Notes under the pieces: generated by a model | The model's database searches: none | What the model saw: the letters and a program-made list of their open reading frames with translations, nothing else | What the model was told of the DNA's origin: nothing | Source: a virus | DNA length: 20,172 nucleotides | IMG/VR virus record: IMGVR_UViG_3300007640_000343 | Location: 1-20,172 of that record | Direction: 5' to 3' (one strand) | Position numbers and translations under genes: made by a program | Part shown: positions 1,332-18,723 of the stretch, one piece after another | Layout: every line of letters starts with the position of its first letter | Position numbering within the stretch: the stretch's first letter is position 1

Positions 1332-1760
1332 GTGGATCGACACACGGATGCAAAGGTCGTTCGACGTATAGAGGCTGAGTACTCACCAGCCACCGAGAAA
1401 TTCGAGCTCGAGGATTGGCTGGCGCAGCAGTTGTTTGACACGTATCACAATCTGTACGAAGGAGAACCAGAACTATTTAGGTTCCGAGAAGCTGTCCTCC
1501 TTTACGCGCCGCAGACTGAGCTTATCAATGCGACAAGGCTCGTGGAGGATGACGTCACTGAACACTGCATACTTCTTAGTGGTTTTCTTTACAAGAACTA
1601 CGGAGTCAAGAGGTTAAATCACAAAGCCGACGTTGAGATGCAACTGATGCTCACAGAGCATGATTTTGAACTAATGGCTATTCAGATCACAGATGAATTA
1701 ATCGCATGGTACGAGACTGTGAGCTGTATGCAGGAAGTAATGAGTATGAAGCTAAAATGA
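1332..1760 (+). CDS. Hypothetical acidic helical protein (142 aa)
   Basis: I do not recognise this family. The protein is acidic, predicted mostly helical, with no signal peptide, membrane segment or visible catalytic motif. GTG at 1332 is the only good start near the 5' end, since there is no in-frame ATG nearby. It lies 53 bases after the VWA gene, directly behind a GC-rich hairpin. Same strand and close spacing suggest co-transcription with the VWA gene. Confidence 0.6.
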   Translation: MDRHTDAKVVRRIEAEYSPATEKFELEDWLAQQLFDTYHNLYEGEPELFRFREAVLLYAPQTELINATRLVEDDVTEHCILLSGFLYKNYGVKRLNHKADVEMQLMLTEHDFELMAIQITDELIAWYETVSCMQEVMSMKLK

Positions 1761-2707: not shown

Positions 2708-4603
2708 ATGAAAATCTTTTACGCAGACGACGACACCAAGTTCCAACAATCACTCGAAGAATTGAATCAAATCCCAAAGCTGTGTCTCGACGCTGAAACG
2801 ACTGGCTTGGACTCACACGTTGCAAAGTTACGCCTGCTTCAGCTCTGCACAACTGATGAAAAGGTAGAAGACAGAACCGTTTACGTTTTAGATCTGTTCA
2901 AAGTAAAGAACACAGCGGGACTAAAAGAACTAATCGAGAGCCGAGAAATGCTCTTAGGTCACAACCTCAACTTTGACCTTCAGTTTCTTTTATCTCTTGG
3001 TATCGATTACAAAGGTAAAGTTTTCGACACCTACGTAGCTGAGCGCTGCCTCCGCGCCGGGTTTAAGGAAAAGAAAATATCACCAAAACTTCAGAAACCA
3101 TATTTCGACGACGTGAGCTGCTCGTTGAAAGCTGTAGTGAGTCGGCGACTCGAACTCGACATCAGCAAAGAACAGCAGGTTTCTGACTGGAGTAAGCAAG
3201 ATCTCGACATCGAACAAATCGAATACGCGGCAAAGGATGTTGACCTTCTGCCCAGCATCGCCGCAGATCAACTCAAAGAGTTAGTGGAGGAAGCGCTGCT
3301 TGACATCTACTCTCTTGAATCCAAATGCGTACGCCCCGTGGCCAAAATGTGTCACAGGGGATTCAACGTTGATGTTAGCAAGTTAGTAGCATTAAAGAGC
3401 GCTATAGGGTTGAAGTTAGAAGAAGTTACACTAGAATTCTGCACTAAGCTCGACGAGGCCCTTCCCCCTGACCTCAAGCTCCCGCGAAACTCAGATGGAT
3501 CCCTGGCAATCGGCAAAAATCTTAGAAAGGAATTCAATCCTGGATCTGGTACGCAGTGCAAAAAACTCTTCGACGCACTTGGAGTTGCTCTACCAACAAA
3601 CCCTGCTACAGGAAAGAGCACACTCAATCAGATTCAACTTGCAGAATTCGACAGCGACGACCCCCTGTTAACCCTCTACCGAAAGCGAACGAAGATTGAA
3701 ACACAGTTAGAGCACGCAGAAAAACTTATCGCCAACGTCAACCCAATAACCCAGCGGATACACTCGGGTTACAACCAATATGGAGCCAACTCAGGGCGAT
3801 TTACGTCAAGCGGAGCTAAGAAAACGAGCGCTAAAAAAGTTAAAAATCAGTTCGCAATTAACGCTCAACAGATACCTAGGGACAAGGAGTTTCGTGAGTG
3901 TTTCGTAGCCACGCCTGGGCATCAGTTGATTATTTGCGACTTTAGTCAGATCGAGTTGCGACTAGGAGCTGAGCTAATTGGTATTCCTCAGATGATCCAA
4001 GCTTTCAAGGACGGACACGATCTCCACACAGTGACGGCGAGTTTGATCTACAAAGTGCCTTTGGAAGAAGTTCAGAAGAGCCAGCGCCAGGAAGGGAAGA
4101 CACTGAACTTTGCACTCTTGTACGGCATGGGCTTCCGCAAATACAAAACCTATGCAGCTCAGAGCGGAAAAATAATCTCGCTGTCGGAAGCTAAGGTTGC
4201 TCACACGGCTTTCCACAACGCCTATCCACGCCTGAGACAATGGCACCGCGAACGTTCAGCTCTTGTTGAAGACGGTTGGACTTACGTTCGCACGCCGTTA
4301 GGCAGGCGTCGGCTTCTCTCGTATGACGACGCCACCATGACTGCTTGTGCCAACACGCTGATACAAGGCGCCGGAGCTGATATCCTTAAGCTGTCGTTAG
4401 CCAAGCTCAACCCTTTCCTAGGGGACGAAGCTCACTTAGTTGCCTGTGTGCACGATGAAATTGTACTCGAAGCAGTCGATGATAAAGTGGAGTACTATAA
4501 AGAAGTACTTGAGCACTGTATGAAAGAAGCAGCAGAGACCATTTTAAAAGAAGTACCTGCTAAAGCAGACGCTAGCCACGGAGAAACCTGGGCAGAAAAA
4601 TGA
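2708..4603 (+). CDS. polA: Family A DNA polymerase with 3'-5' exonuclease domain
   Basis: This is the replicative phage DNA polymerase (631 aa), shorter than bacterial Pol I because the 5' nuclease is absent. The N-terminal proofreading exonuclease shows Exo I D28/E30 (DAETTGLD), Exo II N86 to D90 (NLNFD) and Exo III Y173 to D177 (YAAKD). The polymerase domain has motif A with D411 (DFSQIELR), motif B R460-K464-F468-Y472 (KTLNFALLYG) and motif C H582-D583-E584. F468 aligns with Phe762 of E. coli Pol I. All catalytic residues are present, so it should be active for synthesis and proofreading. The ATG at 2708 has no Shine-Dalgarno sequence and sits directly behind a terminator. The stop overlaps the next start (ATGA), so the two genes are probably translationally coupled. 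Confidence 0.97.
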   Translation: MKIFYADDDTKFQQSLEELNQIPKLCLDAETTGLDSHVAKLRLLQLCTTDEKVEDRTVYVLDLFKVKNTAGLKELIESREMLLGHNLNFDLQFLLSLGIDYKGKVFDTYVAERCLRAGFKEKKISPKLQKPYFDDVSCSLKAVVSRRLELDISKEQQVSDWSKQDLDIEQIEYAAKDVDLLPSIAADQLKELVEEALLDIYSLESKCVRPVAKMCHRGFNVDVSKLVALKSAIGLKLEEVTLEFCTKLDEALPPDLKLPRNSDGSLAIGKNLRKEFNPGSGTQCKKLFDALGVALPTNPATGKSTLNQIQLAEFDSDDPLLTLYRKRTKIETQLEHAEKLIANVNPITQRIHSGYNQYGANSGRFTSSGAKKTSAKKVKNQFAINAQQIPRDKEFRECFVATPGHQLIICDFSQIELRLGAELIGIPQMIQAFKDGHDLHTVTASLIYKVPLEEVQKSQRQEGKTLNFALLYGMGFRKYKTYAAQSGKIISLSEAKVAHTAFHNAYPRLRQWHRERSALVEDGWTYVRTPLGRRRLLSYDDATMTACANTLIQGAGADILKLSLAKLNPFLGDEAHLVACVHDEIVLEAVDDKVEYYKEVLEHCMKEAAETILKEVPAKADASHGETWAEK

Positions 4604-10962: not shown

Positions 10963-13740
10963 ATGAAGTTCATTTGCTCTGTAAACCTCGGGGTCGTTCC
11001 TCACCTAGACCCTGAGCTGGGCAAGATCGCGAGCGGCGGGAACTTCACAGCCTTCAACTCAGGCTGGGACTCATCTGAGTTAGATACGTCTGAACTCGCT
11101 GAAATTTTAGGCAAGCAAGCTGGCTTGTGTGCGTGGCACCTGCAGGACGGCAAGCGGCAAAAGAATCAAACTGGAGTTATCAAAGCTGGTTTGATTATTG
11201 TCGATATCGACAATCAAGCAGATCACAAAGATGAGAATGGAAATAAAGTTCAGAAACAAGAACTCACAGTAGAACAGGCACTACAACTTGACATTTGTAA
11301 GAAGTATTTAACTCTGGGCTACTACAGCCCATCGACCTCCGAAGGGTGGCCACGCTTCCGCTTGGTTTTTGGCCTCGAACATACGGTCATCAACCCTGCT
11401 TTTTATCAGTGGTTCTGCAAACAAATTTACTCTCAGATACCTGGCTCTGACGTCAGGGCGACGACAATACCGAACCTTTTCTACGGACCCAAAAACCCAG
11501 AGGCAATTTTCGCCAAACCGGGACGCTTCATCCCGACCGAGAAAATTGACGAAGCGATTAGGGCATTTGCCGCACTGCCTCCCGACGAAACCGACTTAGG
11601 TGGAGATCCGATTGAGTCCCTAAACCAGGTAACCCTCCGTGAAAACGGAATGGATCTGGTCCGCCTAGTCTCCAACACGGTTCGTTCAGTTCTTGAAGGC
11701 GAGGAAGTAGGTGACCGCAGCTCGACAATGGCTGCAGTATTTAAAGAACTGCTTGGCTGGGCTAACTGGTGCACGGCGAACGAGATAGCTCTATGCGTAT
11801 CACCGTTGACAGTGGCACAAGATGCGTTCTATAATATCTATGGTTACCCGCACGACATCGATGGTAAGTTTGAGCGCATCCTGAACTCCATCAGGAATCC
11901 CGAGGAGCTCCAGCCCGCAGTATCACTGGCTTCCGAGCTCGGTGAGCTAGGCACCTGGAAAAAGATCCGACGAATCAGTCGATCTGTCTTCGATACCCAC
12001 GCCTCGAACGAGGTTAAGGCAGCTCTCGAACAAGCCAAGCGTGAGGCAGCAGTCAACGCTGTCCTCGATATGTCTGAATTTGACCTCAGCTCCCCGGAGC
12101 CTGAGACAACAACATCAAAACCCAAATCAAAAGTCAAAACTAAAGAGCAGGAAATGAACGTTCCTTCTACTCCGAGTCAGCTTGTCAGCCTCCAAGGCGG
12201 CACCAAAAACCGCGAGTTTTCAGAGAATGACGTAGCCGACATCATCGTCACCAACCAAGGCGATCAGTTTATATACGACAGCTACTTAGATCAGTTCTAC
12301 CACTACGACGACGATCAGGACATTTGGTACCACCAGGACGAGCAGCACATCAAACGCCGCATCGTTAAGGCGCTCGACTCCTTTGTGATTGCTGGGGTCC
12401 TCGCCAAGTACAACGCGGCGATGATCAACAGCGTATTCTCAATCCTGAAGGCCAAACTTCTGAAATCTGCAGACGGAGGTCGCCGAAGCATCTGGACTAA
12501 GTCCCGTGGCTACATCCCGTTTAAAAACGGTGTGCTCGACACAACGACGCTCGAGTTTGAGGAAGGCCAGCACAAAGAACTGTATCTTCGTCACAAGCTG
12601 CCTTATGAATACAACGCCAAGGCACAGTGCCCAGAGTTCATGCGCTGGATCACCTCAGCGCTAGATAAAGGGCAAGAGGTTTTGATCCAAGCTTTCGCTC
12701 GAGCACTACTGACCGGATACACCGCAGGCGAACGCTTCCTTCATCTGGTGGGTCCTGGTGGCACGGGTAAGTCGACCATGCAGCAGCTAATGGTGGCTCT
12801 CGCTGGTTTCCACGGCACTCACACGTCCAGCCTGGAGGTAATCGAAACAAACAAGTTCGAGAGCTACAACCTCATCGGCAAGAAACTTCTGCTGCTGACG
12901 GATGAATCGAACTACAACCGCCGCATGGACGTGCTCAAGAAGCTGACCTCGGCTTCTGACACGCTGCGTGCTGAGCGTAAGTACGGCAAAGAAATCATCA
13001 GCTTCAAGCCTGAGTGTTTGGTTTGTATCGCCAGTAACGAGCACATCACATCAAACGACTCCAGCAGCGGCCTCGAGCGTCGTCGACTCACCATTGTGAT
13101 GGATAAGGTCGTTGACCCGAGCCTGCGCAAAGAACTGATCAGCGTGTTCGACGACCACATCGAAGGCGCTTTTGTGCCTGAGATGAGTGGCATCGTGACT
13201 TGGGCACTGTCGATGGACTACGCCACGATGAAAGATGTCTTAGCTAACCCGACTAAGCACGTCCCTTCTCTCAACCGCACCAACATCGAAGCGCTGCTGT
13301 TCAACAATCAGTTCGTGGCGTGGCTGCACGACTGCTGCCTGTACGCTCCAAACACAGTGACTCCTGTCGGCCAGGGTGCACGTAAGCCCAATACGGATGA
13401 AGCCGAAAAAGGTATGTACGTGGCTAACGCGTATGGTGCCTTGTATCCCAGCTATGCCAACTTCTGCAAGTCATGTGGATACAAACCAGCAGCCAAGCAC
13501 CGTTTCGTAGAGCGTACTAAGGAAGCAATGGTGAACATCTTGAAGCTGCCAAATGTGAAGATAGTATTGAACGATGGCGTTGCTGGCATTAAAGGGCTGC
13601 GAATCAAGGCGTATGACCTACAATCCGACCGTGCAGCAAAAGGTCCAGAGCGACTCCCCAGCCCTGTGGAGTTTGCTCAAGACACAAGCAGCAACCGCTG
13701 GGATACAGCTTTCCAAAAACATGATCCGGCTAAATCCTAA
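10963..13740 (+). CDS. Primase-helicase (PrimPol-like plus D5/P4-type SF3 helicase), 925 aa
   Basis: The N-terminal ~200 residues resemble an archaeo-eukaryotic-type primase: metal-binding DID at 81-83 (GLIIVDIDN), a YYSPSTS strand at 120-126 and RFRLVF at 131-136, then an FYG motif near 173-175. A linker follows (about 365-400, Lys/Thr/Ser-rich). The C-terminal half is a phage/plasmid P4-type helicase: Walker A GPGGTGKS at 597-604, Walker B with D647-E648 (LLLLTDESN), a sensor Asn at 692 (CIASNEH) and an arginine-rich GLERRRLTI. It would unwind DNA and lay down primers for the family A polymerase. The ATG at 10963 lacks a Shine-Dalgarno sequence. The last 20 bases overlap the next gene. The helicase half is certain; the primase half is by motif pattern. 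Confidence 0.93.
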   Translation: MKFICSVNLGVVPHLDPELGKIASGGNFTAFNSGWDSSELDTSELAEILGKQAGLCAWHLQDGKRQKNQTGVIKAGLIIVDIDNQADHKDENGNKVQKQELTVEQALQLDICKKYLTLGYYSPSTSEGWPRFRLVFGLEHTVINPAFYQWFCKQIYSQIPGSDVRATTIPNLFYGPKNPEAIFAKPGRFIPTEKIDEAIRAFAALPPDETDLGGDPIESLNQVTLRENGMDLVRLVSNTVRSVLEGEEVGDRSSTMAAVFKELLGWANWCTANEIALCVSPLTVAQDAFYNIYGYPHDIDGKFERILNSIRNPEELQPAVSLASELGELGTWKKIRRISRSVFDTHASNEVKAALEQAKREAAVNAVLDMSEFDLSSPEPETTTSKPKSKVKTKEQEMNVPSTPSQLVSLQGGTKNREFSENDVADIIVTNQGDQFIYDSYLDQFYHYDDDQDIWYHQDEQHIKRRIVKALDSFVIAGVLAKYNAAMINSVFSILKAKLLKSADGGRRSIWTKSRGYIPFKNGVLDTTTLEFEEGQHKELYLRHKLPYEYNAKAQCPEFMRWITSALDKGQEVLIQAFARALLTGYTAGERFLHLVGPGGTGKSTMQQLMVALAGFHGTHTSSLEVIETNKFESYNLIGKKLLLLTDESNYNRRMDVLKKLTSASDTLRAERKYGKEIISFKPECLVCIASNEHITSNDSSSGLERRRLTIVMDKVVDPSLRKELISVFDDHIEGAFVPEMSGIVTWALSMDYATMKDVLANPTKHVPSLNRTNIEALLFNNQFVAWLHDCCLYAPNTVTPVGQGARKPNTDEAEKGMYVANAYGALYPSYANFCKSCGYKPAAKHRFVERTKEAMVNILKLPNVKIVLNDGVAGIKGLRIKAYDLQSDRAAKGPERLPSPVEFAQDTSSNRWDTAFQKHDPAKS

Positions 13741-14783: not shown

Positions 14784-15482
14784 TTACTGAGGCAAGTAGC
14801 GAATAAAGTCCCAACCTTTTAACGAGGGATCTTCCGATTGCTTAATCGCTTTAACAACAGTCGGCAGCTCACGAGCTAAGCGGTACCCAATCGAACGAGC
14901 GATTTCACGATGCTCCTTCTGGGTGTCGTCTTTGCCGCGCAGGCCAACGTAATGAATAAAGCTGCGGATTGTGCCGCTCATGTGCATACGCGTAGGTGTG
15001 TACAAGGGCAAAATATTTCGAGCACACTCACGCGCCACGCCGGCGTCGAGCATCTCGTTGTACAACCCTTGAATCTGACTATCGACAATCTCGAGCCGCT
15101 CCCAGAACGACTCACACATATAGAGCGGTAGACGCTCCACACTGCTCTGGCGATTCTTTTGAGCTTGGAACCTCAGTTCGAACTGAAACGGTTTTTCTTC
15201 AAGCTCTAAGGTCTCACTAGGTGCGCAATACCTTTGAGAGAGTTCCTGGAATACGAAGCTTCTATGTCGAAGGATCTGCGGCGAGATTGCCCTGGTCGTT
15301 GAGATTTCAAAGCTCGCAGACGCTTGCTCGTAAACTGACCAGTGAGCGTGTTTGATGCAGTACGTTAAAAGTTTCTCGTATTCTTCGCGGTCAGGATCTT
15401 TAGTAGAAACCCTGGCGTGTCTTGCGATTACTTTTTCCGCATCCTGTGTGATCCAATCCAGGTCAGCGGAATGTAGCTGCAT
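14784..15482 (-). CDS. thyX: Flavin-dependent thymidylate synthase
   Basis: ThyX methylates dUMP to dTMP using methylene-tetrahydrofolate and FAD/NADPH, feeding phage DNA synthesis. The signature is RHRSFVFQELSQRY at residues 72-85, which keeps RHR-x7-S (R72, H73, R74, S82) and the final RY; the usual N before E is Q79, as in many cyanobacterial and phage forms. The C-terminal part has the RNILPLYTPT stretch and LRGKDDTQKEHREIA, matching the LR...Q.E.R..A folate/dUMP region. The length of 232 aa is normal. The ATG is at 15482, with a TAATG overlap with the stop of the 46-residue gene upstream, so translation is probably coupled. Confidence 0.96.
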   Translation of the reverse strand: MQLHSADLDWITQDAEKVIARHARVSTKDPDREEYEKLLTYCIKHAHWSVYEQASASFEISTTRAISPQILRHRSFVFQELSQRYCAPSETLELEEKPFQFELRFQAQKNRQSSVERLPLYMCESFWERLEIVDSQIQGLYNEMLDAGVARECARNILPLYTPTRMHMSGTIRSFIHYVGLRGKDDTQKEHREIARSIGYRLARELPTVVKAIKQSEDPSLKGWDFIRYLPQ

Positions 15483-16660: not shown

Positions 16661-17896
16661 TCACTTGGCTTGGATGATCCAGCCAGACTTGGCGCCTTCG
16701 ACCAGGAAACGAGGGCCGAGATTTTTCTTGGAGTACAGCCGATACTTCCCGTCAGTAGAGACATAACCGCCACTCACGAGGTCCATTTCACCAAAGGGGT
16801 CATGTATCCAGAGCTTCGTTTTATCTTCCGTGACGCCCACGCAGCAGATCCAATGCCCTCCCCCAACTGGATTAGAAACGGGTCCTTTATGGAGAACCCC
16901 CATAGGGACAGGTATTCCTTTTTTAAGTTGAGATTCGATTAAAGCCCAATCAGCATTTTGAACAAAATTGGCGTCAACGCCGAAATGCTTGAGGGCTCCA
17001 AGCTGAGCAGAAGCCTCTGTAGTGTCACCATACTTATAAACTTCGTTTATATACTCGTCGTCACCATCGATCGCATCAGGATCTAAAGACGCCAAAAGCA
17101 TGGCGCAACTGCTAGAGAAGCAGGTACGCATAGGGTCTTTTTTATTATCTCGTTGGCTGAAATAAGGAACAACGAGCTTTATCTCACCATCTAAGACAGG
17201 TGGCCCTTCTTGCGTTTGCGCATCATTGATTATCTTCCAGTGATCGGGGAAGATCCACCACTCTCTGTCAGGCTGCGCTTCTAAAAACACACGGTGGTGT
17301 GTCTCACCCGAAAACATTCGAATCTCAGACCATTGCCAAGCACTGCCTTTGGGTACGAACAGTTTCTCCTCTGCTGAAAGCGAGGCAGAGTCCGCAGGGC
17401 GTCGCTTGAGCCAGGTGTCGCGCTTGGCAAGAATCGACTTACTCAAGAGAGGGTGCTTACTCTTCTCCAAGAATAAAGCTTTCTCAGCCTCTCTTCGACG
17501 TACTAAACCAGGAACAGGTTCATCGCCACCTGCCTTAACCCAACGATCAAACTCACCAGCTACAACTTTGCGATCGGCACCGTGATTTAGGAGTTTCAAT
17601 AAGGTGCTATTTACAAAAGCAGTAGGACCAACATTGAAAGTGAAAGAAACTAACGAGTCATACTCGTTTTGATTTATTTTGACGGATACAAAACTACTTA
17701 CAGTTTGCTGAGCACTTTCGGTGTCTTTCCACAGCAGTCGTTCTGCTTCCTCTTCTGTAATCTGCTGGTTTGGGTATACGTCTGGACCTGTATGTCCGTA
17801 ACCAATAGTTAGAACACCAGCCGGACAGATGTAACTTTTTAAACGTATACCCTCAAACTTTTTGATTAAATCTATACCCTTCTGAGAAACACGCAT
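16661..17896 (-). CDS. Endolysin: GH24 lysozyme plus SH3-like and C39-like peptidase domains (411 aa)
   Basis: The N-terminal ~145 residues are a T4-type muramidase: catalytic E15 in FEG, C24 in YICPAG at the position of T4 Asp20, and T30 in LTIGYGHTG. Cys at this position is known in active relatives. Residues about 158-222 look like a small SH3-like binding domain (TWLKRRPADSASL to WIFPDHW). The C-terminal part is a papain-like C39-family peptidase: Q247 in YFSQRDN, C259 in RTCFSSSCAM, H348 in GGGHWI and D366 in IHDPFGE. It could cut both glycan and peptide bonds of the cell wall; alternatively the second half processes a virion or host protein. No signal peptide is present, so a holin would be needed. 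The start codon lies in a long hairpin (17895-17940). Confidence 0.93.
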   Translation of the reverse strand: MRVSQKGIDLIKKFEGIRLKSYICPAGVLTIGYGHTGPDVYPNQQITEEEAERLLWKDTESAQQTVSSFVSVKINQNEYDSLVSFTFNVGPTAFVNSTLLKLLNHGADRKVVAGEFDRWVKAGGDEPVPGLVRRREAEKALFLEKSKHPLLSKSILAKRDTWLKRRPADSASLSAEEKLFVPKGSAWQWSEIRMFSGETHHRVFLEAQPDREWWIFPDHWKIINDAQTQEGPPVLDGEIKLVVPYFSQRDNKKDPMRTCFSSSCAMLLASLDPDAIDGDDEYINEVYKYGDTTEASAQLGALKHFGVDANFVQNADWALIESQLKKGIPVPMGVLHKGPVSNPVGGGHWICCVGVTEDKTKLWIHDPFGEMDLVSGGYVSTDGKYRLYSKKNLGPRFLVEGAKSGWIIQAK

Positions 17897-17940
17897 CGGT
17901 CAAATCCTGCCCTTAAATACTCTGGCAGAACCTGACCGAT
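17895..17940 (-). promoter_or_regulatory. Start-codon-sequestering hairpin of the endolysin gene
   Basis: On the minus-strand transcript, an 8-base arm (AUCGGUCA, 17940-17933) pairs perfectly with UGACCGAU (17902-17895), whose last two bases are the A and U of the endolysin AUG. Inside a 4/4 internal loop, CUGCC (17928-17924) pairs with GGCAG (17911-17907), with a 12-base loop. The likely ribosome-binding AGGA ends 8 bases before the AUG and overlaps the inner stem and internal loop. The fold would block initiation. No T-run follows, so it is not a terminator. Confidence 0.7.
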
Positions 17941-17958
17941 TACGGCGTGAAGTTTTAA

Positions 17959-18357
17959 TTAAGCGACTAAAGCTGTAATGCGATACTCGCTCTCACTGCG
18001 TCCCTTACGGAGCACGTAAACTGTTGCGGTGTCACCAGATGTTACCCCATAACCTACGCCGATTCCGGTACGGCGAGAAGTCTTAGGAGCATTAACTTCA
18101 CCAGCTAAGGTTCCGTCAGCTTTATACACAGCGATACCAGAAACGCCAAAAGCTTCGGCGTTTAAGAGAATTGTTGCAGTACCGGTCGACCCGTAAGTCA
18201 ACTCATAAACATCAGCTAAACCGAAGTTCCCATCAGCCGCAAACGAACGATAGCTGTTAACGGTTACGTTCAGTCCATCATCAGTGCGTAACTGACCAAA
18301 CCGAGTAATGCCGGCAGGAGCGGCACCAAGTTCGCGGTTGAAGGTAGCCTCGGCCAT
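17959..18357 (-). CDS. Probable small virion (decoration- or fibre-like) protein (132 aa)
   Basis: The protein is rich in Gly, Ala, Thr and Val with an alternating beta-strand pattern throughout (for example TATILLNAEAFGVSGIAVY and GDTATVYVLRKG), no membrane segment and no catalytic motif. This composition is typical of phage decoration, spike or tail-fibre domains. The role is inferred from composition and from its position next to the endolysin. An AGGTGAG sequence about 13 bases before the ATG may be its ribosome-binding site. It is divergent from the plus gene at 18397, with 39 bases between them. Confidence 0.65.
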   Translation of the reverse strand: MAEATFNRELGAAPAGITRFGQLRTDDGLNVTVNSYRSFAADGNFGLADVYELTYGSTGTATILLNAEAFGVSGIAVYKADGTLAGEVNAPKTSRRTGIGVGYGVTSGDTATVYVLRKGRSESEYRITALVA

Positions 18358-18396
18358 GGCTAGATTTAACTCACCTCAATATAAAGATTCTAAGAC

Positions 18397-18723
18397 ATGT
18401 ACAACAAAACAAATGCCCTTATTTACGAGCTGATTATGTTCCTATGTAGATTTTATCCCTTGAAGCAAAAAGCTTGGATCAGACAGATTCTCGATTACTG
18501 CCGACCTGACTGGGCTGCGTTTCGAGCTGAAGTCGCGATGAAGGAGGTCGACAAGCAAGTCGAAGACCTCCACGCGCAGTGGGAAGAGGAAGAAAAAAAT
18601 AAACAGAAGCCTGTGTATACCGAACTCGAACCAGACGGATCTAAAGCTCAGGAGCTGCTAGGCGGCGAAATGAGACTCAGCGCCCCTTGGACTGTCGAGA
18701 CTCGCGATAAGAACGCGCCTTAG
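18397..18723 (+). CDS. Hypothetical protein on the opposite strand (108 aa)
   Basis: A plus-strand frame inside the minus-strand block. Residues about 8-22 form a moderately hydrophobic helix (IYELIMFLCRFYPL); residues 45-70 are a charged helix (KEVDKQVEDLHAQWEEEEKNK). No minus-strand gene competes over 18397-18676, which supports it. Its last 47 bases overlap the convergent micro-gene 18841-18677, and its ribosome-binding site is weak. No family is recognised. Confidence 0.55.
   Translation: MYNKTNALIYELIMFLCRFYPLKQKAWIRQILDYCRPDWAAFRAEVAMKEVDKQVEDLHAQWEEEEKNKQKPVYTELEPDGSKAQELLGGEMRLSAPWTVETRDKNAP

Follow-up and report, generated by a model that had tools for sequence, protein, structure and literature searches.

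A selected RNA helix over the endolysin start of an S-EIV1-like cyanophage, with a predicted promoter in its loop

The endolysin gene and the hairpin in front of it

The window, that is, the whole stretch of 20,172 nt that was analysed, encodes on its minus strand an endolysin of 411 aa with a phage lysozyme domain at residues 12-138 (PF00959, E 5e-44) and a C39-like peptidase domain at residues 243-367 (PF13529, E 5e-7). A family A DNA polymerase (2708-4603) and a D5-like primase (10963-13740) are also encoded in the window, together with a protein (14784-15482) which we take, from its sequence, to be a flavin-dependent thymidylate synthase (ThyX)-like protein. As a ThyX-like protein, a family A DNA polymerase and a D5-like primase constitute the gene kit of phage S-EIV1, the window was assigned to an S-EIV1-like cyanophage. 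The features of the endolysin locus are as follows.

16661..17896, minus strand: endolysin, 411 aa, ATG at 17896-17894 (open reading frame and domain matches)
17895-17940, minus strand: whole hairpin, AUCGGUCAGGUUCUGCC / AGAGUAUUUAAG / GGCAGGAUUUGACCGAU
17895..17911, minus strand: 3' arm GGCAGGAUUUGACCGAU, containing the Shine-Dalgarno sequence and the A and U of the AUG (fold and covariation)
17905..17908, minus strand: Shine-Dalgarno sequence AGGA, 8 nt 5' of the AUG and within the 3' arm (sequence)
17912, minus strand: predicted +1, the last base of the loop, giving a 16-nt leader GGGCAGGAUUUGACCG and then the AUG
17912..17923, minus strand: loop AGAGUAUUUAAG (sequence and fold)
17919..17924, minus strand: predicted -10 CAGAGT, which begins with the base that closes the 5' arm; the conserved form is [C/A]ARAVT, 26-30 nt upstream of the endolysin start
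17924..17940, minus strand: 5' arm AUCGGUCAGGUUCUGCC, present on read-through transcripts only
17941..17958, minus strand: spacer from the stop codon of the 132-aa gene (17961-17959) to the hairpin, without a detectable terminator
17959..18357, minus strand: preceding gene, 132 aa (MAEATFNREL...), whose synteny upstream of the endolysin is conserved
18387..18392, minus strand: predicted -10 TAGAAT for the 132-aa gene, located 35 nt upstream of its ATG, with A at +1

A preliminary description of this DNA had placed a hairpin in front of the endolysin, and its position at 17895-17940 proved exact. The structure had been drawn as an 8-bp stem, a 4/4 internal loop and a 5-bp stem, a drawing that has to be corrected: the supposed internal loop, GGUU facing GAUU, pairs as G-U, G-U, U-A and U-G (three G-U pairs and one A-U pair), and the helix is thus a run of 17 uninterrupted pairs. 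The AGGA (17908-17905) and the first two bases of the start codon (A17896 and U17895) lie within its 3' arm, as had been described. The folding energy was -26.3 kcal/mol for the hairpin alone and -33.7 kcal/mol within 91 nt, the latter corresponding to a z of -4.8 against dinucleotide shuffles, none of 200 being equally stable. A scan of both strands of the window gave no other stem with 14 or more pairs around a loop of 3-14 nt; this helix was also the longest, and the hairpin was the lowest-energy 46-nt segment among the 10,064 scanned. No Rfam family was matched by the hairpin at gathering scores. A covariance model (R1) found one strong site per genome, always 5' of the endolysin. Temperature sensing, which had also been proposed, found nothing in its support, and an RNA thermometer was rejected, as a helix of 17 bp with -26 kcal/mol at 37 C is not marginal and had no Rfam match.

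No isolate homologue of the preceding 132-aa gene was found. Its TAGAAT, together with the A at +1, recurred in each of the 16 relatives checked whose gap before the endolysin exceeds 60 nt; in the hairpin groups, 61-66 nt lie between this gene and the endolysin. No intrinsic terminator, searched for as a stem followed by a U run, was found in 17700-18500. The stop codon of the 132-aa gene lies 18 nt upstream of the hairpin, so that a terminating ribosome would be unlikely to melt the helix. Some relatives (L089 and L095, and the leaders L147-L150 and L171-L187) have a gene for a holin-like membrane protein after the 132-aa gene or directly before the endolysin, and its 3' end bears CAGAATTAAG-like motifs; the group of the window is without this gene. 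A small open reading frame or holin remnant in the spacer was rejected, since the distance from AGA to AUG is either 26 or 27 nt, so that the frame varies, and the invariant positions would be third codon positions.

Covariation of the helix among relatives

Endolysin homologues in viral contigs provided 59 distinct leaders, which are interrelated and not independent of one another. A strong hairpin was present in 13 of them (L123, L125-L129, L133, L134, L136-L138, L200 and L086), and among these the sequences of the arms are largely replaced while the pairing persists, as in L138 (arms TTGATCGGTTTTTGCC / GGTTAAAGCCGATCAA) and L134 (arms GCCCAGTCTC / GAGGCTGGGC). The end of the 3' arm always falls within a few bases of the endolysin start codon. 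Matches of the DNA pattern in L079, L084, L085 and L087 were set aside as coincidences in coding sequence.

In an alignment of ten rows in the same register, the covariation sum of the true helix was the highest among 276 possible 16-bp helices, and the values of pairs 12-53, 13-52, 14-51, 17-48 and 19-46 were matched or exceeded by at most two of 1,415 background column pairs. When all 13 rows were aligned, with L134-L137 in a shifted register and hence scored as partly unpaired, 84% of the helix cells were paired against 77% in shuffles, and 17 cells were doubly changed against 6.6; none of 500 shuffles reached the true paired percentage, the number of double-change cells or the covariation score. 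Two-sided changes were seen in 7 of the 17 helix pairs of this alignment. On the endolysin tree the compensatory changes repeat in separate lineages, pair 12-53 being U-A in L126, L128, L129 and L138, and pair 17-48 being G-C in L126, L133 and L138. Such changes had been named beforehand as a check on the hairpin, and their occurrence in separate lineages supports the earlier claim that the ribosome-binding site is sequestered. By this comparison of leaders, the helix is an RNA structure kept by selection.

A covarying inverted repeat could in principle function in DNA, as the operator of a DNA-binding protein or as a cruciform element. We regard this as highly improbable for the endolysin leader, where the arm sequences are unconserved and many pairs are G-U, and where the 3' arm keeps its place at the start codon, which a DNA operator would not require. 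In gapless phages, where the endolysin start adjoins or overlaps the upstream stop codon, there is no hairpin, which indicates that other lineages use a different solution.

The loop motif and the -10 layout of these phages

Across the hairpin leaders the loop starts with A[GA]A[GAC]TA preceded by C. The motif NARAVT was found 25-31 nt upstream of the endolysin start in 33 of the 59 distinct leaders, against 0-7 in other windows of 7 nt, and its positions A2, A4 and T6 are invariant while neighbouring bases turn over. Leaders in which no stable hairpin forms (L139, L140-L146 and L158-L166) also have this motif at an unchanged distance, as do phages with the holin-like gene upstream, e.g. L171, L178 and L196; its presence thus does not depend on the hairpin. 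In the holin-upstream phages it overlaps the final codons of the upstream open reading frame, and this overlap may itself explain its conservation there.

These observations bear on the suggestion, already made in the preliminary description, that an RNA-binding protein controls the element. A phage or host protein could recognise the conserved loop AGAGUA and stabilise or open the helix, and a loop of the form A-N-A-N-U-A that stays invariant while the stem sequences change is the usual signature of a recognised loop. In the operator of T4 and RB69 gp43 a hairpin near the ribosome-binding site likewise has a loop conserved between related phages, and the polymerase binds that loop (PMC3014915). 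The endolysin motif differs in that it persists without the hairpin, which points to a use at the DNA level. Conservation of an operator loop should depend on the hairpin, and the motif instead stands at 26-30 nt in the hairpin-less leaders (L139, L140-146, L158-166) and the holin-upstream phages; it also agrees with the -10 layout of other genes, and no binding protein is known. The suggestion has therefore become a less likely one, and we hold a protein operator to be quite improbable. Three further readings of the loop were rejected: a sarcin-ricin-like loop, whose key G is unconserved; a pseudoknot with the start of the coding region, whose partners are broken in L129 and L137; and an antisense promoter TACTCT on the plus strand, which is conceivable but has no -35 and is unlike the phages' own -10s.

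The -10 layout was apparent in the leaders of other genes, in which TAGAAT, TAGACT and TAAACT recur about 30 nt upstream of the starts, as among 80 homologues of a 206-aa gene. In five genomes, TARAVT peaked 25-39 nt before the starts of genes preceded by a gap of 30 nt or more (39, 23 and 16 per 5-nt bin, against mostly 2-7 elsewhere), and the positional test revealed no peak of TANANT or TARAVT for gapless genes. Alignment of 117 TARAVT-type sites placed an A at hexamer +12, i.e. at +1, in 59% and disclosed no -35 element. In the isolate S-EIV1, for which the deposited gene starts were used, the same peak was found (9, 10 and 3, against 0-3 elsewhere), with A at +1 in 12 of 22 sites. The layout of TARAVT or TANANT 25-39 nt before starts is common to G001, G003, G010, G013, G015 and S-EIV1 (L311), and their leaders are mostly about 15-25 nt long. 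Synechococcus phage S-EIV1 (KJ410740) resembles the phage of the window in its DNA polymerase A, ThyX and primase, in having a 56% homologue of the 206-aa gene and in this -10 layout; it differs at the gene annotated as its lysozyme (2654-2962), where TAGAAT stands at -30.

Before the endolysin the motif reads [C/A]A[AG]A[ACG]T, which agrees with this layout at positions 2-6 and in its spacing of 26-30 nt. From the position of A at hexamer +12 in the 117 sites, the +1 was predicted at 17912, and a purine stands at the predicted +1 in all hairpin relatives. Sigma70 captures A-11 and T-7 of bacterial promoters, and both are among the invariant bases of the endolysin motif. Position -12 departs from the T that is the norm of the layout, being C in 26, A in 6 and T in one; C-type hexamers were not enriched upstream of other genes in the positional test, and a position weight matrix that included position -12 did not choose CAGAGT as the best site in the leader of the window. 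With C or A at -12 and no enrichment of the C-type elsewhere, the motif could be a weak promoter, a different promoter, or none. L129 and L138 have a further good -10 about 60 nt upstream, from which a transcript would contain the entire hairpin. We infer that the -10-like loop motif is an active endolysin promoter of sigma70-like type without a -35.

A transcript much like the short one could also arise if an endonuclease, for example cyanobacterial RNase E, cleaved the read-through mRNA within the AU-rich loop and so freed the 3' arm and the start codon. The RNase E of Synechocystis prefers A at -4 and -3 and U at +2 (PMC10989914). The loop offers CARA|VUA, in which -3 is always A and +2 always U, and the product of the cut would be approximately the same short mRNA. 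Position -4 is C and not A, however, and cleavage does not account for a spacing that agrees with the phage -10s, for the purine at hexamer +12 or for the presence of the motif in leaders without a hairpin. We accordingly give a cleavage switch little credence.

Occlusion of the ribosome-binding site and a proposed switch

The cost of opening positions -15 to +3 of the endolysin start was computed for the long and the short transcript. For the long transcript the 13 hairpin leaders all gave 12.4-24.9 kcal/mol, and for the short one 2.9-5.5 kcal/mol; in leaders without the hairpin the long transcript already costs about 5 kcal/mol. On G001, a 56.6-kb contig of the same phage, the opening cost of the endolysin was the highest of 81 genes (24.9 against a median of 6.2 kcal/mol); the endolysin was the most occluded start also in G010 and G015, but not in G003. 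In a shuffle test of 115 promoter-bearing genes, which asked how far occlusion requires the segment 5' of the predicted start, the endolysins ranked first, second, third and fifth; 10 genes had z above 2.5 and none had z below -2.5, and in the hairpin phage L128/G003 the effect was moderate only (z 1.9).

Computed costs of 12-25 kcal/mol also bear on another reading, that of a hairpin which only reduces endolysin translation without ever being switched, with the loop motif left over from a promoter that has decayed or from the end of a holin gene since lost. The C at -12 would suit such a reading, as would the occurrence of CAGAATTAAG at the same distance in the holin 3' ends of relatives, and the gapless phages do without the hairpin, their start and stop codons being nearly adjacent or overlapping. 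Yet an opening cost of this size should nearly abolish translation, which is awkward for an essential lysis enzyme unless there is another mRNA, and A2, A4 and T6 are fixed while their neighbours turn over. A static attenuator is in our judgement improbable.

The explanation we favour, with a fair measure of confidence, is a cis-acting RNA switch with an internal promoter. It builds on features observed directly in the leaders: the helix, its covariation and its position over the ribosome-binding site, and the conservation and spacing of the motif with its match to the phages' -10 layout. A read-through mRNA from the TAGAAT promoter of the 132-aa gene, with no terminator between, would carry the whole hairpin, and we infer its existence from this arrangement. 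On that mRNA the 17-bp helix would hide the Shine-Dalgarno sequence and the start codon, and translation is predicted to be blocked, with almost no endolysin made. The weak -10 CAGAGT in the loop, with its C at -12, would start transcription at the last loop base, and the resulting short mRNA, GGGCAGGAUUUGACCG-AUG, would have the complete 3' arm with the ribosome-binding site and no 5' arm, and would be translatable. Endolysin output would thereby be decoupled from the preceding gene and its dose set by its own weak promoter. The anatomy points to an insulation of the endolysin from the read-through mRNA of the preceding gene; a timing of the endolysin as early or late is possible. The preliminary description had envisaged release by a shorter transcript beginning within the left arm, and a -10-like motif does lie within the hairpin, with the predicted start at the last base of the loop and not in the arm.

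The same description had likened the element to T4 lysozyme, with a late promoter inside the stem. In T4 gene e a helix over the Shine-Dalgarno sequence and/or the AUG blocks translation of the long transcripts about 100-fold (PMC3014915), and the two leaders share the helix over the ribosome-binding site on long transcripts and a lysis enzyme as product. The promoter predicted here is of another kind, a sigma70-like -10 in the loop, with no -35, and is not TATAAATA; a T4-like late promoter was rejected, as no TATAAATA occurs in 17895-17960. The read-through mRNA, moreover, probably comes from the adjacent gene and not from early transcription, the host genomes of the element are S-EIV1-like cyanophages, and its transcript is predicted from sequence. 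By this analogy the element, which is not a member of the T4 late-promoter group, may work like T4 gene e and is probably an arrangement of the same type that arose convergently. The hairpins of homing endonuclease genes (segB, mobE of Aeh1 and I-TevI/II/III; PMC2988022) are similar in that an internal promoter omits the 5' strand of a hairpin over the ribosome-binding site, and differ in their endonuclease products and their T4-type middle or late promoters. A literature search, with subscription journals mostly outside its coverage, found no such element described for cyanophages.

Other leaders have comparable features. The 142-aa gene (1332-1760, plus strand) is preceded by a hairpin at 1304-1334, in which a -10-like TAGATT is followed by the stem GAGGGGC/GCCCCTC ending 2 nt before the GTG; homologues have different stems in the same place (GGAGTAG/CTACTCC in G003, TTAGGGGACA/TGTCTCCTAA in G010). 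Upstream of a 355-aa late gene, at 41237-41300 of the G001 contig (L110/L111), a conserved ACGTAG/CTACGT encloses TAAACT and GGGAGGG, the arms being ACGTAA/TTACGT in G003 and ACGTAG/TTACGT in G010, with a fold not clearly better than shuffles; this is possibly a third leader with a promoter in a hairpin. In G013 (54308-54326, minus strand) and G014 (15124-15142, plus strand) an inverted repeat GTGCC AAAGTATAT(A/G)T GGCAC surrounds CAAAGT, 36 nt before an 87-aa cysteine/histidine-rich gene, and is a weak match to the endolysin model.

The genes whose occlusion depended on the upstream segment also included the 142-aa gene, the 355-aa late gene and, in G015, the 206-aa gene. Four of the five folds checked lay within about 1.75 sd of shuffles, so occlusion beyond the endolysin is a lead only. 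It is conceivable, though on balance doubtful, that S-EIV1-like cyanophages have a general device, a helix over the ribosome-binding site whose 5' strand is omitted by the gene's own -10-only promoter, at the endolysin, the 142-aa gene, the 355-aa late gene and in some phages the 206-aa gene, each gene answering only to its own promoter. Such a device would insulate each gene in a genome with many small promoters and few terminators.

The endolysin leader thus presents, on sequence evidence and outside the T4 group, a lysis gene that would be silenced by a helix and bypass it by means of its own promoter, and the compensatory changes make this helix hard to dismiss. It suggests that the promoter-bypassed helix over a ribosome-binding site arose more than once. 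The -10 TARAVT without a -35, the A at +1 and the leaders of about 15-25 nt provide a testable promoter map for these little-studied cyanophages, known mostly from metagenomes. If the switch is confirmed, it would be the endolysin's own weak promoter, and not the mRNA of the preceding gene, that sets the endolysin dose.
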